The translations under genes were made by a program, and so were the position numbers. DNA of 64,000 nt from an uncultured Verrucomicrobia subdivision 3 bacterium (lineage in GTDB: Bacteria > Verrucomicrobiota > Verrucomicrobiia > Limisphaerales > UBA11358). Below the pieces are notes generated by a model that was not told where the DNA came from, ran no database searches, and saw nothing but the letters and a program-made list of their open reading frames with translations. The stretch lies in the NCBI GenBank assembly GCA_903922735.1, contig CAIXUZ010000001.1, forward strand, positions 1 to 64,000, written 5' to 3'. This document shows positions 4,324 to 59,143 of the stretch, in pieces; the stretch's first letter is position 1; each line of letters opens with the position of its first letter.

Positions 4324-6432
4324 ATGGCCGAACCCAAAGAAAATTTGCAGATGGAAAAAATCGTGTCGCTGTGCAAGCGGCGGGGCTTCATTTTTCAGTC
4401 GTCGGAAATCTACGGCGGCATCAACGGTTTTTGGGATTACGGCCCGCTCGGCGCCGAGCTCAAGCGCAACGTCAAGGAACTCTGGTGGCACGCCATGACC
4501 CGCCAGCGCGACGACGTCGCCGGCCTCGAAGCCACCATCATCATGTCGCCGAAAATCTGGGAGGCATCCGGCCATGTGGATACGTTTGCGGATATGATGC
4601 GGGAATGTCCACTGACCAAGAAACGAGTTCGCGCCGATCAAGTTGAACCGCAAAGTGGAACTGTGATTCGCTATTCTGGTGCTTATAGTCGCAAACAAGA
4701 TGAAGGAAGCACCGAAGATGAAAAAAAATATTCTCGATTGTTTGACGAATTCGCACCGTCACTTACGAACAAAGAATCAATTACAAAATTGTTCGAAGAC
4801 AATATCAAAGATGACGAGGTGGAAAAGGAGATGGGAAAAATACTTGGTGTGATTCCAGATGGTAATAAGCTCGCATTTTATAGAAAAGTGCTTGCATTGG
4901 GGTTTTCCGAAAAAGTGTTCCAGCCTTTTTCCATATTGCTTCAGCAAGGAAAGCCAATGGAAAGTGCTCGAAAAATCGCAATTCAATATTACACTGAAAA
5001 TGGCTGTTCCAATCCCATTTTATTGGGAGAACGTGTTGATAAAGTTGAAAATTCCGTTGATTTTCATCCTGAAAGTGGCGTGGAGCTTTCAACAGCGCGT
5101 CCTTTCAATTTGATGCTCAAAACCATTACTGGCCCGCTTGATGTTCCACCGCTTGATTTTGATCCAATTACAGATTCGCGGAAGTGGAACGATTGGAAAC
5201 ATTCATTTGAGCAGAGTCAAAAAAACGTCGCCTATCTCCGCCCGGAAACCGCGCAGGCAATTTTCGCGCAGTTCAAGAACGTGCTGGAAACGTCGCGTCA
5301 GAAAGTCCCGTTCGGTATCGCTCAGGTTGGCAAGGCGTTCCGCAACGAAGTCACGCCACGCAATTTTACTTTTCGCTCGCGCGAGTTCGAGCAGATGGAG
5401 CTGGAATTTTTCATCAAGCCGGATGAAGTCATTGAAGCGATTCATGGTTCGGTGTTCAGGGTTCAGGGTTCAGGGCTGGCAAATGCCGAACCGGGAACTC
5501 TGAACCGGGAACCCCAACCCAATTGGGGTTGGGAAGCGTGGCATCAATACTGGGTCGAGGAGCGCGTGCGCTTCTACGAAGGCATCGGCCTGTCCCGCGA
5601 GACGCTGGGTTTTCACATCCAGACCAAGGAAGAGCTGGCGCACTACGCCCGCGCCTGCACGGATATTTTGTTCAAGTTCCCCTTCAGCAAGCAGGACGAG
5701 AGCGGCAACGTGAAGGGCGACGAACTGGAAGGCATCGCCGCGCGCAGCGATTTCGATTTGAGCCAGCACCAGCGTTTCTCCGGCAAGCCGATGGGCGTGT
5801 TTGACGACGAATTGCGCCAGGCGTGGGCGAAGTTGCCGAAAGAAAAGCAGGACGACCTGTGGCGTCGTTACTACGAGCACCGGAAGAATTATCTGACCAA
5901 GTCCGCCCGGCCGGACGAAACGGCGGAGCAGATCCAAAAGCAGGCGACCGACGACGCGAACGGACTGGCCAAGGGCCAATACATCCCGCACGTCATCGAA
6001 CCGAGCGCGGGCGTGGATCGTTTGATTCTCGCACTCATCGCCAATGCCTATTCCGAAACCACCGAAACGGACGCGAAAGGCAAACCCGAGACGACTTACA
6101 CGATGAAGTTCCATCCGCGGGTCGCGCCGATCAAGGTCGGTGTGCTGCCGTTGCTCAAGAACAAGCCGGAGCTGGTGAAGCAAGCCATCGCGGTCCGCGA
6201 CCTGCTGCGTCCGTGGATGAATGTCTATTATGACGACGGCGGCAGCATCGGCAAACGCTATGCCCGTCAGGACGAGGCCGGCACGCCGTTTTGCGTGACG
6301 ATTGATTTCGACACGCTCGGCGAAAAGCCGGAACTGCTCGGCACCGTGACCCTGCGCTACCGCGATGACGGCAAGCAGGAGCGTTTGAAAATTTCCGAAT
6401 TACGCGACTGGCTGTTGGCGCGGGTGCGCTGA
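4324..6432 (+). CDS. glyS: Glycyl-tRNA synthetase (eukaryote/archaeal-type, alpha2)
   Basis: Charges tRNA-Gly in the cytoplasm. The start ...MEKIVSLCKRRGFIFQSS, then YGPLGAELKRN, the class II motif-2 stretch around VGKAFRNE, and the motif-3 stretch around EPSAGVDRLILAL identify the class II GlyRS. The C-terminal anticodon-binding domain follows (APIKVGVLPL ... GKRYARQDEAGTPFC). Two oddities are present. Residues ~100-300 (DNA 4620-5220) are clearly AT-richer than both flanks and lack the CxxC zinc-ribbon cysteines common in this region. And an in-frame stutter-word insertion lies at 5446-5515. At 702 residues it is longer than compact bacterial GlyQS enzymes, consistent with added material. 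The frame is uninterrupted, so it is probably functional. Confidence 0.93.
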   Translation: MAEPKENLQMEKIVSLCKRRGFIFQSSEIYGGINGFWDYGPLGAELKRNVKELWWHAMTRQRDDVAGLEATIIMSPKIWEASGHVDTFADMMRECPLTKKRVRADQVEPQSGTVIRYSGAYSRKQDEGSTEDEKKYSRLFDEFAPSLTNKESITKLFEDNIKDDEVEKEMGKILGVIPDGNKLAFYRKVLALGFSEKVFQPFSILLQQGKPMESARKIAIQYYTENGCSNPILLGERVDKVENSVDFHPESGVELSTARPFNLMLKTITGPLDVPPLDFDPITDSRKWNDWKHSFEQSQKNVAYLRPETAQAIFAQFKNVLETSRQKVPFGIAQVGKAFRNEVTPRNFTFRSREFEQMELEFFIKPDEVIEAIHGSVFRVQGSGLANAEPGTLNREPQPNWGWEAWHQYWVEERVRFYEGIGLSRETLGFHIQTKEELAHYARACTDILFKFPFSKQDESGNVKGDELEGIAARSDFDLSQHQRFSGKPMGVFDDELRQAWAKLPKEKQDDLWRRYYEHRKNYLTKSARPDETAEQIQKQATDDANGLAKGQYIPHVIEPSAGVDRLILALIANAYSETTETDAKGKPETTYTMKFHPRVAPIKVGVLPLLKNKPELVKQAIAVRDLLRPWMNVYYDDGGSIGKRYARQDEAGTPFCVTIDFDTLGEKPELLGTVTLRYRDDGKQERLKISELRDWLLARVR
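5446..5515. repeat. In-frame stutter-word insertion (GTTCAGG) in glyS
   Basis: Three copies of GTTCAGG in tandem are followed, after about 12 nt, by the inverted words GAACCGGGAAC and TGAACCGGGAAC. Together they make an imperfect hairpin-capable unit. In frame it encodes a low-complexity peptide (FRVQGSGLANAEPGTLNREP) at a surface loop between IKPDEVIEAI and the WEAWHQYW segment, where family members have a shorter, variable loop. Confidence 0.65.
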
Positions 6433-32486: not shown

Positions 32487-32557
32487 GATTTACGATTGAC
32501 GATGGACAGGCGATTCCGGCCGGCGACGTGTAAATCGTAAATCGTAAATCGTAAATG
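32487..32557. repeat. Inverted stutter-word element (GTAAATC) between gspE and pilM-like genes
   Basis: The word CGTAAAT occurs four times in tandem at 32531-32556, preceded about 30 bp earlier by inverted forms (ATTTACGATT, GACGAT). The two halves can pair. The element fills most of the only intergenic gap of the secretion cluster. Confidence 0.65.
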
Positions 32558-44697: not shown

Positions 44698-44800
44698 ATT
44701 TTCAACATCGAACATTCAACATTCAACGCTCAACATCCAAGTACTCCCTCGCGGAAATCATTGGGTGTTCGATGTTGAATGTTGAGCGTTGAATGTTTCC
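44697..44800. repeat. Inverted stutter-word element (CATTCAA) between cimA and valS
   Basis: The left half repeats CATTCAA/CGCTCAA words; a 25-bp spacer follows; the right half repeats the inverted words (GTTGAATGTTGAGCGTTGAA). The halves match over about 30 bp and can form a long hairpin. It fills nearly the whole cimA-valS gap and contains no T-run, so it is not an ordinary terminator. Confidence 0.75.
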
Positions 44801-49436: not shown

Positions 49437-50101
49437 GCCTTCAGCTTCGCCAGCGCCTTGGCGCGGTGGCTCAATTTGTTTTTTACGTCTTCGCCCAGTT
49501 CGGCGAACGACTGGGTGAAACCGTCCGGTACAAACAGCGGATCGTAGCCAAACCCGCCCTGTCCGCGCGGTGAAGATCGAATCTGCCCTTCGCAAGCGCC
49601 GTCGAATAACTGCGCTTCAAGTTTATCTGCAAAACAAACGGGTGAGGCGTACTTTGTATTTCTCTCCGGGATGGGTGCCAGCGCAATCACGCAGCGGAAG
49701 CGCGCGGAACGCTTTTCCAGCGGCACCTCTTTCAGCAAACGGAGGAGCTTGGTGTTGTTGTCGGTGTCGTGGGCGTTTTCACTTTTGTCCAGCGCGGCGA
49801 AGCGCGCGGAATGCACGCCGGGCGCGCCGTTCAGCGCATCCACTTCCAGGCCGGAATCGTCGGCGAGCACGAAGTTGGGAGTTGGCTGTTGGCTGTTGGC
49901 TGTTGATTTTTCCCCCGCCCGCCACTTCGCCAGTTCCACGGCCTTCTTCGTCGCATTGCCGGCAAACGTGTCGGCATCTTCGATCACGGCGGGCGCGTCG
50001 GGAAATTCCTTGAGCGTGAGGCAGCGGAATTGCGCGCCGAGGATGGCTTGAATTTCACCGACCTTGTGGGCGTTGCGCGTGGCGATGAGCAGCGTCGTCA
50101 T
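49412..50101 (-). CDS. rdgB: Non-canonical purine NTP pyrophosphatase (RdgB/HAM1)
   Basis: 229 residues; hydrolyses dITP, XTP and similar to clean the nucleotide pool. LIATRNAHKVGEIQAIL, FAGNATKKA, FVLADDSGLEVDALNG, GQGGFGYDPLF and SHRAKAL are all present. The loop before LADDSG has an insert, KSTANSQQPTP, made by the GGCTGTT stutter repeat (49874-49908); it is in frame and at a position where family lengths vary. Confidence 0.9.
   Translation of the reverse strand: MTTLLIATRNAHKVGEIQAILGAQFRCLTLKEFPDAPAVIEDADTFAGNATKKAVELAKWRAGEKSTANSQQPTPNFVLADDSGLEVDALNGAPGVHSARFAALDKSENAHDTDNNTKLLRLLKEVPLEKRSARFRCVIALAPIPERNTKYASPVCFADKLEAQLFDGACEGQIRSSPRGQGGFGYDPLFVPDGFTQSFAELGEDVKNKLSHRAKALAKLKAYFNKLPT
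49874..49908. repeat. In-frame stutter-word insertion (GGCTGTT) in rdgB
   Basis: GTTGGGAGTTGGCTGTTGGC and further GGCTGTT words: the 7-bp word appears three times in tandem. The reading frame is maintained (peptide STANSQQPT). The same principle, with different words, is seen in glyS and leuS. Confidence 0.65.
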
Positions 50102-52217: not shown

Positions 52218-53684
52218 TTAGTAGCGATAGTGTTCCGGCTTGTAAGGACCTTCCACCGGCACGCCGAGGTATTCGGCCTGCGCCTTGGAAAGCTTGGTCA
52301 GCTTCACGCCGATCTTTTCCAGATGCAGGCGGGCGACTTCCTCGTCGAGTTTCTTGGGCAGACGATAGACGCCGATCTTCGCGGTGTCCTTGTTCTTCCA
52401 CAGGTCGAGCTGGGCCAGCACCTGATTGGTGAAGCTGTTGCTCATCACGAAGCTCGGATGGCCGGTGGCGCAGCCGAGATTCACGAGCCGGCCTTCCGCC
52501 AGCATGTATATGCTGTTGCCCTTGGCGAAGGTGTATTTGTCCACCTGCGGCTTGATGGTGAGTTTCTTCACGCCTTTGGCGTTGTTCAAGCGGTCCACCT
52601 GGATTTCGTTGTCGAAGTGGCCGATGTTGCAGACAATGGCCTGGTCTTTCATCTTCGCCATGTGTTCCAGCGTGATGATGTCCTTGTTGCCGGTCGTCGT
52701 GACGTAGAGATCGGCGGTCCCGAGCGTGTCTTCCACGGTCGTGACTTCAAAACCTTCCATCGCTGCCTGCAAGGCGTTGATCGGATCGATTTCCGTGACG
52801 ATGACGCGGGCGCCGAAGCCGCGCAGCGAATGCGCTGAGCCTTTGCCCACATCGCCGTAACCGCAGACGCAGGCGACCTTGCCGGCGACCATCACGTCGG
52901 TCGCGCGCTTGATGCCGTCGGCCAGCGATTCGCGGCAGCCGTAAAGGTTGTCAAATTTGGACTTGGTGACGGAGTCGTTCACGTTGATGGCGGGAACCAG
53001 GAGCTTGCCCTGTTCCAGCATCTGGTAAAGGCGATGCACGCCGGTGGTTGTCTCTTCGGAAACCCCTTTCCAATCTTTGACGACCGTGTGCCAGAAACCG
53101 GGGCGTTCCTTCGCCACTTTTTTCAATAGCGCCTTGATGACGGCCACTTCGTGGTTGTCGCTCGGCGTGTTGACCCACTTGTCGCCGTTTTCGAGTTCGT
53201 AGCCTTTGTGGATCAGCAGCGTTGCGTCGCCGCCGTCATCGACGATGAGCTGCGGGCCTTTGTTGCCGGGATGCGTGAGCGCGCGGAGGGTCAAGTCCCA
53301 GTATTCTTCGAGTGTTTCGCCTTTATGCGCGAAGACCGGAATGCCGGCGGCGGCAATCGCGGCGGCGGCGTGGTCCTGCGTCGAGAAGATGTTGCAGCTC
53401 GCCCAGCGCACCGAGGCGCCGAGTTCCACCAGCGTCTCGATGAGAATGGCCGTCTCGATGGTCATGTGCAGCGAGCCGGTGATGCGCACGCCCTTGAGCG
53501 GCTTCTGCTTGCCATACTTGGCGCGGATGGACATCAGGCCGGGCATTTCGTGCTCGGATACCTGAATCGTTTTGCGGCCCCACTCGGCGAGCGAGAGGTC
53601 GCGGACGGCAAAATCCTGCTTCGCGCTGGCGCTGGCGGATTTGACGATGGTTTTGCGGTGGGAGGATAATTTGATTGTAGCCAT
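52218..53684 (-). CDS. ahcY: Adenosylhomocysteinase
   Basis: Hydrolyses S-adenosylhomocysteine to adenosine and homocysteine, completing the activated-methyl cycle with MetK. 488 residues from ATG 53684 ([11 protein letters not shown]). [32 protein letters not shown], the NAD-binding [10 protein letters not shown] and [13 protein letters not shown] are present, as is the C-terminal KPEHYRY. The longer frame begins in a stutter repeat and is less likely. It is downstream of metK on the same strand, with a small inserted gene between them. Confidence 0.95.
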
Positions 53685-53692
53685 ATGTTTCA

Positions 53693-53720
53693 AGTTTTCA
53701 GTTTTCAGTTTTCAGTTTTG
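53693..53720. repeat. Stutter-word repeat (TTTTCAG), ahcY side
   Basis: AGTTTTC is repeated three to four times in tandem. On the minus strand the repeat codes the last residues (KLKTEN) and the stop of the four-helix-bundle gene and then reaches to within 8 bp of the ahcY start. The same word appears in inverted pairs on the other side of that gene (54068-54134). Confidence 0.75.
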
Positions 53721-54066
53721 GGGATAGGGAGCGGATAAGGCCTTGCAGCATGGCGGAGATTTCCTTGGTCTCGTTCACAAAGCTGTCGGCTTCATCTTTG
53801 GTCAGCAATTCAAGTTTCAAGGCGATGTAATTTTGAGTCCGCAGCTCGGCGGCAGAACCTTTGGCAATCCGCAGGAAACGGATGAAATCCTGCTTGCTGT
53901 CACGCTCCGAGCCTTCCGCGATGTTCGATGGAATCGAAATTGCGGCGCGCTGCATCTGGTCTTTGAGCACATACTGTTTTGACTTTGCGAGCGTCCGGCA
54001 GACATCCACCGCCAGCCGGCAGGCCCGCTTCCAAACTTCCAGTTTCTCAAACGACTGATAAGCCAT
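53698..54066 (-). CDS. Four-helix-bundle protein (S23/Avd-like)
   Basis: 122 residues, PF05635-like: [40 protein letters not shown] and [18 protein letters not shown] are the conserved blocks of bacterial 23S rRNA-intervening-sequence proteins, which form a pentameric four-helix bundle and are related to the Avd protein of diversity-generating retroelements. Such genes often travel as selfish inserts. Here it interrupts metK-ahcY, is co-directional with them, and is bounded by the same TTTTCAG word on both sides, with its own C-terminus encoded by that word. Confidence 0.9.
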
Positions 54067-54067
54067 A

Positions 54068-54134
54068 ACTCTAGTTTTCAGTTCCTAGTTTCAAATTTTC
54101 AGAACTGAAAACCGAACACTTGAAACTGAAAACT
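54068..54134. repeat. Inverted stutter-word element (TTTTCAG), metK side
   Basis: CTAGTTTTCAGTTCCTAGTT and AATTTTCAG, then CTGAAAACC, CACTTGAAAC and TGAAAACTC: forward words followed by inverted words, able to fold as a hairpin. Same word as 53693-53720, so the four-helix-bundle gene lies between matching borders. Confidence 0.75.
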
Positions 54135-54136
54135 CA

Positions 54137-55306
54137 TCATAACGCTTTCAACAGGGCTTCGACCTTGTTCGTCGCTTCCCACGTCAGATCCTTGTCGCTC
54201 TTGCCGAAGTGACCGTAGTTGGTCGTCTTGCCGTAAATCGGCCGGCGCAAGTTGAGCTGGTCGATGATGTCCGACGGCTGAAAGCTGAACACCTTGTTCA
54301 CGGCGCGGATGATCTTGATGTTGGAAACCGTGTTTGTGCCGAAGGTCTCCACGTGCACGCTGACCGGGTTCGGATGGCCGATGGCGTAGGCGAATTGGAG
54401 TTCGCAGCGCGCGGCGAGGCCGGCGGCCACGATGTTCTTCGCCACCCAGCGGCCCATGTAGGCGGCGCTGCGGTCCACCTTCGTCGGATCTTTGCCGGAG
54501 AACGCGCCGCCGCCGTGACGGCCCATGCCGCCGTAGGTGTCCACGATGATCTTGCGGCCGGTCAAACCGGTGTCGCCTTGCGGCCCGCCGACGACGAAAC
54601 GGCCCGTCGGGTTGATGAGGAATTCGGTCTGCTTGGTGAGCAGCTTCGCGGGGAGAACTTTCTTGATGATCTTCTCGATGCAGAACTTTTCGATCTCGGC
54701 GTGTTCCACATCCGCGCTGTGCTGCGTGGAGATGACGACGTTGGAAATGGCCACCGGTTTGTCGTTTTCGTAAACAACGGAGACCTGTGACTTCGCATCG
54801 GGGCGGAGCCACGCGGCGCCGCCGGCTTTGCGGATGCGGGTGAGTTCGCGGCCGAGGCGGTGCGCGAACATGATCGGCGCCGGCATGAGTTCGCGCGTTT
54901 CGTTGCACGCGTAGCCAAACATCAAACCCTGGTCGCCCGCTCCCTGCTTCGCGGTCTTCTTGCCTTTGGCTTTGCGGGCATCCACGCCCTGCGCGATGTC
55001 CGGCGACTGCTGGGTCACGATGACATTCACGAACACCTTGTCCGCATGAAACACATCATCATCATTGACGTAGCCGATTTCGCGGATGGCCTTGCGGGCG
55101 ATCGCCACGAAGTCGAGCTTGGCCTTCGTGGTGATCTCACCGCCGATGATGGCGATGTTGGACTTCACGTAGGTTTCGCAGGCGACGCGGCTGAATTTGT
55201 CCTGCGCCAGACACGCGTCCAGCACGGCATCAGAAATGGTGTCGGCCACTTTGTCCGGATGGCCTTCGCCGACGGACTCGGAAGAGAAGATGTAACGGTT
55301 GCTCAT
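54137..55306 (-). CDS. metK: S-adenosylmethionine synthetase
   Basis: Makes SAM from methionine and ATP. 389 residues from ATG 55306 ([19 protein letters not shown]). [16 protein letters not shown], the [17 protein letters not shown] loop and [19 protein letters not shown] confirm the family. The longest frame adds 26 unlikely residues upstream. It probably forms an operon with the four-helix-bundle gene and ahcY. The divergent ArsR-methyltransferase is a candidate regulator. Confidence 0.96.

Positions 55307-56389: not shown

Positions 56390-59143
<2,754 letters not shown>

Follow-up and report, generated by a model that had tools for sequence, protein, structure and literature searches.

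How does a gene of the 23S rRNA-intervening-sequence-protein family (S23, PF05635), a family previously known mainly from insertions in rRNA genes, come to lie between metK and ahcY, with both of its flanks written in a single 7-bp word? We addressed this question in the window, i.e., the whole 64-kb stretch of Verrucomicrobiota DNA that was analyzed, and in S23 loci of related and distant genomes. S23 or "four helix bundle" genes are widespread and have no assigned function (PMC4990558). Heptamers are the most abundant class of longer simple repeats in many bacterial genomes, and slippage over the 7-nt polymerase footprint has been guessed as their source (PMC4679880). S23 genes, the intervening sequences (IVSs) of rRNA, and heptameric repeats were all known before; the tie between S23 and heptamers, at the level of the gene and of the genome, appears to be new, and it links two unexplained genome features in Verrucomicrobiota and Xanthomonadaceae.

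Anatomy of the S23 unit in the metK-ahcY operon

The S23 ORF matches PF05635 over positions 1-106 of 106 in a profile search (124 bits vs a curated cut-off of 33.8, E 3e-36), and a PDB sequence search gave 2GSC (XCC0516) and 2RLD as the closest solved structures. With its word borders, the ORF forms a unit of ~440-460 bp (Table 1). On the ahcY side, three tandem copies of TTTTCAG/CTGAAAA (53695-53715) follow a TTTCAAG, and the array stops 3 bp short of the ahcY start codon. On the metK side, the word forms an inverted pair (54075 and 54096 on the plus strand, 54105 and 54126 on the minus strand), and the order in the sense direction is outer arm, short loop, inner arm, and S23 ATG. The outer arm is complementary to both the inner arm and the 3' array; the inner arm has the same orientation as the 3' array, so that direct repeats flank the ORF. 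The TGA stop (53698-53700), the last codons, and the KTEN tail of the protein are themselves composed of the word. An earlier note made from the letters of this DNA had described these flanks, tandem on one side and inverted on the other, and the word-built end of the gene, and both descriptions hold. The word occurs 23 times in the window, compared with 12.2 +/- 2.9 times in shuffles, and 7 of the 23 copies fall within 438 bp (53695-54132), where about 0.16 are expected, which rules out chance clustering at the unit. The predicted RNA fold of the 5' hairpin has a z of -4.55, and 0 of 200 shuffles were equally stable.

Table 1. The S23 unit, its host genes, and other heptamer-word features, in window positions
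Feature	Position	Strand	Remarks
ahcY, S-adenosylhomocysteine hydrolase	52218..53684	-	downstream host gene; Pfam
3' heptamer array	53688..53719	-	sense strand AAAACTG x3 + AAACTTG; TRF
S23 gene (PF05635)	53698..54066	-	122 aa
Inner 5' arm of heptamer hairpin	54070..54102	-	CTGAAAA words (sense), then S23 ATG
Outer 5' arm	54103..54135	-	TTTTCAG/TTTCAAG words (sense); directly follows metK stop
metK, S-adenosylmethionine synthetase	54137..55306	-	upstream host gene; Pfam
Hairpin without S23	44701..44797	.	CAACATT.../...AATGTTG, upstream of valS; same genome
Array in leuS coding sequence	57345..57376		GCGGAAA
Array in leuS coding sequence	58236..58267		ATTTGAA
Array in XTP/dITP pyrophosphatase-like ORF	49881..49905		CCAACAG (TANSQQPTP)
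Heptamer-like inverted pair	5441..5513		TTCAGGG.. / ..GAACCGG, inside apparent coding region
Array without S23	32530..32556		GTAAATC x4, inverted partner 22 bp off

Word borders, empty sites, and inheritance of S23 loci

Borders of the word type, which the earlier note had seen at one locus, mark most S23 loci. We locally aligned the 250 bp 5' of the S23 domain with the reverse complement of the 250 bp 3' of it; controls were 250 non-S23 genes from these genomes and swapped flanks of different S23 loci. The 75 S23 loci of relatives reached a median score of 17, compared with 8 for control genes (p 4e-33) and 8 for swapped flanks (p 2e-32), and 60% of them scored at least 16, a level reached by 0% of the 250 control genes and 2% of the swapped flanks. 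A wide sample of 78 loci, obtained by scanning GTDB species genomes (Clostridia, Bacteroidota, Proteobacteria, Planctomycetes, candidate phyla, and others), had a median of 15 vs 8 for control genes and 8 for swapped flanks (p 3e-27), and scores of at least 14 were found in 73% of loci, 3% of controls, and 1% of swapped flanks. The 31 Xanthomonadaceae loci had a median of 19, with 81% at 14 or above. Among periods of 4 to 14 in the flanks, strong enrichment was seen only at 7 (with its multiple 14); period 7 was present at 53% of S23 loci in relatives and 51% in the wide sample, compared with 6% and 9% of control genes. The terminal repeats are inverted, yet not conserved between copies: we counted about 95 distinct words, nearly every locus having its own, which rules out a fixed border sequence. 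What is general is thus the word border as such, and not TTTTCAG. G outnumbers C in the 5' arm at 144 of 160 S23 loci (p 6e-27). Clear inverted arrays were not found at some S23 loci (L003, L008, and others). At L003 (G000:C79:5201-8503), the word ATCGTAA lies mainly on one flank, and about 20 bp from the terminus of the upstream gene (GGGCGCGCGTAA) recur at the 3' end of S23, resembling a duplication made by insertion.

The genome of the window (hereafter own) contains eight PF05635 genes, most with their own surrounding word, mostly mirror-imaged; these words include GCGGAAA/TTTCCGC, GACCTGA/TCAGGTT, GTGATGC/GCATCAC, ACATCCA/TGGATGT, and CATTCAA/TTGAATG. One conserved locus is present twice in a single MAG (L006 and L007, on G000:C20 and C60), with S23 85% identical and different words; this pair is probably contamination by a second species.

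The unit is not common to all relatives, since empty metK-ahcY sites exist. The junction could be read in 30 genomes, and the gap is short in most of them, typically 20-50 bp; S23 with its words occupies the site in six (own, G001, G006, G020, G026, and G035), and in G041 the gap holds a word hairpin and no S23. In G003, whose MetK is 98.5% identical, the site is empty and has no array. A second own locus, C39, holds ~460 bp with four word copies at each end in own, G006, and G026, and its array adds a few residues to the upstream protein. The equivalent site is empty in G003 (which reads ..CAGAAGTAACCTATG..), G027, and G005, and no target-site duplication is visible when own is compared with these three. 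The search for empty sites by joined flanks covered part of the own S23 loci. As the empty sites lack arrays, the arrays come and go together with the S23 gene. The earlier claim of a ~440-bp element with its own borders is borne out: relatives either have the complete unit between the same genes or lack it completely. By inspection, the C39 gap of G012 (L268, C77) holds a different small insert of two genes, toxin-antitoxin-like, with a PIN-like protein.

Words also change between some orthologs. The C39 arrays are letter-identical in own, G006, and G026 despite S23 dS values of 1.0-1.9 between them. The metK-site word varies by species (TTTTCAG, TTTCAAG, GTGTTCA, TTTCAGG), and among the metK orthologs the match of the outer arm to the 3' array averages 17.7 within species vs 11.0 between species. 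Clear co-variation of words is seen only at metK; over all orthogroups it did not reach significance (p 0.11), given that the word is shared within most of them.

Several relatives have S23 at the same site as orthologs with 65-92% identity, and much of S23 history is therefore vertical inheritance and loss. With a dN/dS of about 0.1 among orthologs, mostly 0.07-0.25 where dS is unsaturated, S23 evolves under purifying selection. Outside the genus, its nearest relatives (51-69% identity) lie in various operons: again at metK-ahcY (L178), in Persicirhabdus between genes resembling nuoK and nuoL (L180), and next to capsule-type genes (L179; gene names by inspection), and a relative in a Neisseriaceae genome (L184) shares both the TTTTCAG word and the KTEN tail. 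S23 is co-directional with both neighbors at 65-70% of loci vs 37% for other genes, in agreement with the proposed entry into the operon in the same orientation. The relatives at unrelated loci and the co-directionality support insertion and horizontal transfer. The mobility proposed in the earlier note stands in part. Presence or absence of the whole unit and close S23 relatives (the same subfamily, 52-69% identity) at unrelated loci in other taxa speak for it; against it, no transposition event was caught among the loci compared, many S23 genes are orthologs at one fixed site in different species, and the words also occur without S23.

Heptamer arrays beyond S23 loci and their likely origin

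The window contains five arrays of period 7 and zero or one of every other period from 4 to 12. The two leuS arrays (Table 1) are translated in frame, one of them reading ISNSESQ-like. The hairpin upstream of valS was considered as an S23 relic and rejected, since S23 is present at that place in 0 of 30 relatives. Several relatives have hairpins of other words at the valS site (CACAGAG, CACAGAT, and ACGCGAAT types, with a period not strictly 7), i.e., the position of the hairpin is kept and its word changes.

Arrays are also tied to S23 at the level of whole genomes. In sampled stretches of Verrucomicrobiota genomes, we counted 33 period-7 arrays in 787 kb of S23-containing genomes vs 2 in 713 kb of S23-free genomes (p 8e-8, kinship ignored), and periods 4, 5, 8, and 13 showed no such difference in these samples. 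A few of the 33 arrays flank S23 genes, and arrays also lie away from S23. An inverted partner was present within 700 bp of 8 of 27 sampled arrays vs 0 of 135 random segments; the other 19 had no good inverted partner nearby. PF05635 is present in 26 of 59 Xanthomonadaceae genomes, and the median number of GGGRNYC triple repeats is 184.5 with S23 and 1 without (p 1e-6, kinship ignored); thus, the GGGAATC repeats of Xanthomonas (PMC4692102) travel with S23. Many arrays were found in 3 of the 33 S23-free Xanthomonadaceae, and S23-containing genomes poor in GGGRNYC repeats have other words around S23. This genome-level co-occurrence is a correlation and could have a shared cause.

We consider it probable that the unit is an operon-dwelling S23 element, kin of the 23S rRNA IVS, with heptamer arrays as its ends and a protein that acts in trans on such arrays. 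The element consists of a single S23 gene (~120 codons) with a short array of a 7-bp word at each end, the two arrays being inverted relative to each other. It would insert in the sense direction, after one gene's stop codon and before the next gene's start codon, and would thereby ride on the host transcript and do little harm. S23, whose solved relative is a pentameric four-helix bundle, may act in trans on heptamer-array DNA and promote annealing and copying of complementary or tandem words, through template switching or strand annealing. Such copying would spread and homogenize words within the element and would seed S23-less arrays and hairpins across the genome, and the whole unit may reach new operon gaps by horizontal transfer or by rare ectopic events of this type. 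As the unit has no other gene, the enzymatic step is probably borrowed from the host. Transposition of the unit and its biochemical step are what we infer; a DNA-binding or annealing activity of S23 was not found in the open-access literature.

The resemblance of arms could also arise at the RNA level, if they form a stem in the polycistronic mRNA, RNase III cuts it and releases the S23 ORF, and selection acting on this RNA stem maintains the complementarity of the arms. The Coxiella IVS has the same layout: RNase III cuts its 28-bp terminal stem, and tandem GACAGAT heptamers precede the S23p ORF (PMC4990558). The sense orientation of S23 in operons, the arms that stay complementary among metK orthologs with different words, and the predicted fold of the unit (z -2.47), in which the 3' array pairs with the outer 5' arm, would all fit. 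In the whole unit, however, the outer arm is predicted to divide its pairing between the inner arm and the 3' array, and in metK-type units the long-range stem has to compete with a local hairpin. Moreover, G.U wobbles in the sense-strand arms are not in excess over A.C mismatches (190 vs 228), which speaks against RNA pairing as the selected trait behind the likeness of the arms, and arrays far from S23 in S23-containing genomes are left unexplained. We therefore regard this process as possible and rather unlikely. The lack of a G.U excess favors word copying at the DNA level, between the arms and elsewhere, possibly with S23 acting in trans. It is possible that RNase III excises the RNA of the unit in addition to the DNA-level process.

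It is improbable that polymerase slippage makes arrays everywhere and that S23 merely inserts into them or survives in them. S23-less arrays and word hairpins exist, and heptamers have long been noted as the commonest longer repeat class, with slippage proposed (PMC4679880, PMC4692102); nevertheless, arrays are missing from empty sites and nearly absent from S23-free members of the same phylum, and insertion into one array should leave direct flanks, whereas the observed flanks are inverted and of fixed polarity. Equally hard to sustain is a host regulatory module, here of the SAM cycle, because, despite strong purifying selection on S23, conserved positions in several orthogroups, arrays that adjoin start codons, and regulatory roles guessed for heptamers by earlier authors (PMC4679880, PMC2700814), presence at each site is patchy (at metK-ahcY, most genomes lack the unit) and the anatomy is identical in unrelated host operons.

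Returning to an S23 element with heptamer-array ends, we tentatively extend it to the claim that S23 proteins create and spread bacterial heptamer repeats. S23 may then be a minimal selfish element of one gene and no transposase, whose ends are a self-chosen 7-bp word, mirrored at either end, with both sides being rewritten jointly as time passes. On this view, the turnover of heptamer arrays should switch on when S23 is gained and off when it is lost. The effect in trans, if true, would give one-gene elements a novel means of marking their ends and of moving.

Relation to known systems

Avd of diversity-generating retroelements is described as a four-helix-bundle pentamer, related in fold to S23. 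The earlier note had drawn on this kinship, and the tie to retroelements was not supported. Unlike Avd, the S23 unit has no reverse transcriptase nearby and does not co-occur with RVT_1: RVT_1 genes are present in 19 of 59 relatives, unrelated to S23 presence, which rules out a dependence on reverse transcriptase, and the sole own RVT_1 match lies on contig C38, away from the metK-ahcY unit. The PDB sequence search with the S23 protein matched S23 structures and no Avd structure.

With IS/MITE and REP/RAYT (Y1_Tnp) systems, the S23 unit shares terminal inverted repeats, hairpins, and gene-less copies, and, as in IS/MITE, it is present or absent at orthologous sites (metK-ahcY, C39). It differs from them in having no transposase, no conserved terminal sequence, and no target duplication seen. 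Dependence on a Y1/RAYT transposase is ruled out, as Y1_Tnp is missing from some S23-containing genomes, such as G053, S23-rich ones among them.

Heptameric repeats have been reported as GGGAATC in Xanthomonas and Nostoc (Rehm 2015, PMC4692102), TAACTGA in Beggiatoaceae (MacGregor 2015), and GGGACCG at 49 places in Geobacter. The arrays of S23 units, tandem perfect or near-perfect 7-bp units, belong to the same class of bacterial simple repeats; both are intergenic and intragenic and sometimes form inverted pairs, and in Xanthomonadaceae the S23 genes are flanked by the published GGGAATC-type word. Beyond the remark on Coxiella (PMC4990558), we found no connection of S23 and heptamers in the open-access literature, including the papers on these heptamers. 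The arrays described here differ from the published ones in that they end a gene-carrying unit and track S23 at the genome level.

The closest likeness is to the 23S rRNA IVSs of Leptospira and Coxiella, in which an S23/PF05635 ORF likewise fills an insert of ~430-460 bp with complementary ends that is transcribed with the host RNA. As the Coxiella IVS carries heptamers, these may be an old property of the S23 family. In contrast to an IVS, the metK-ahcY unit lies between protein genes of an operon and not in an rRNA helix, and its end words are locus-specific. Because of its location outside rRNA, the unit is of the IVS kind and not an IVS proper.
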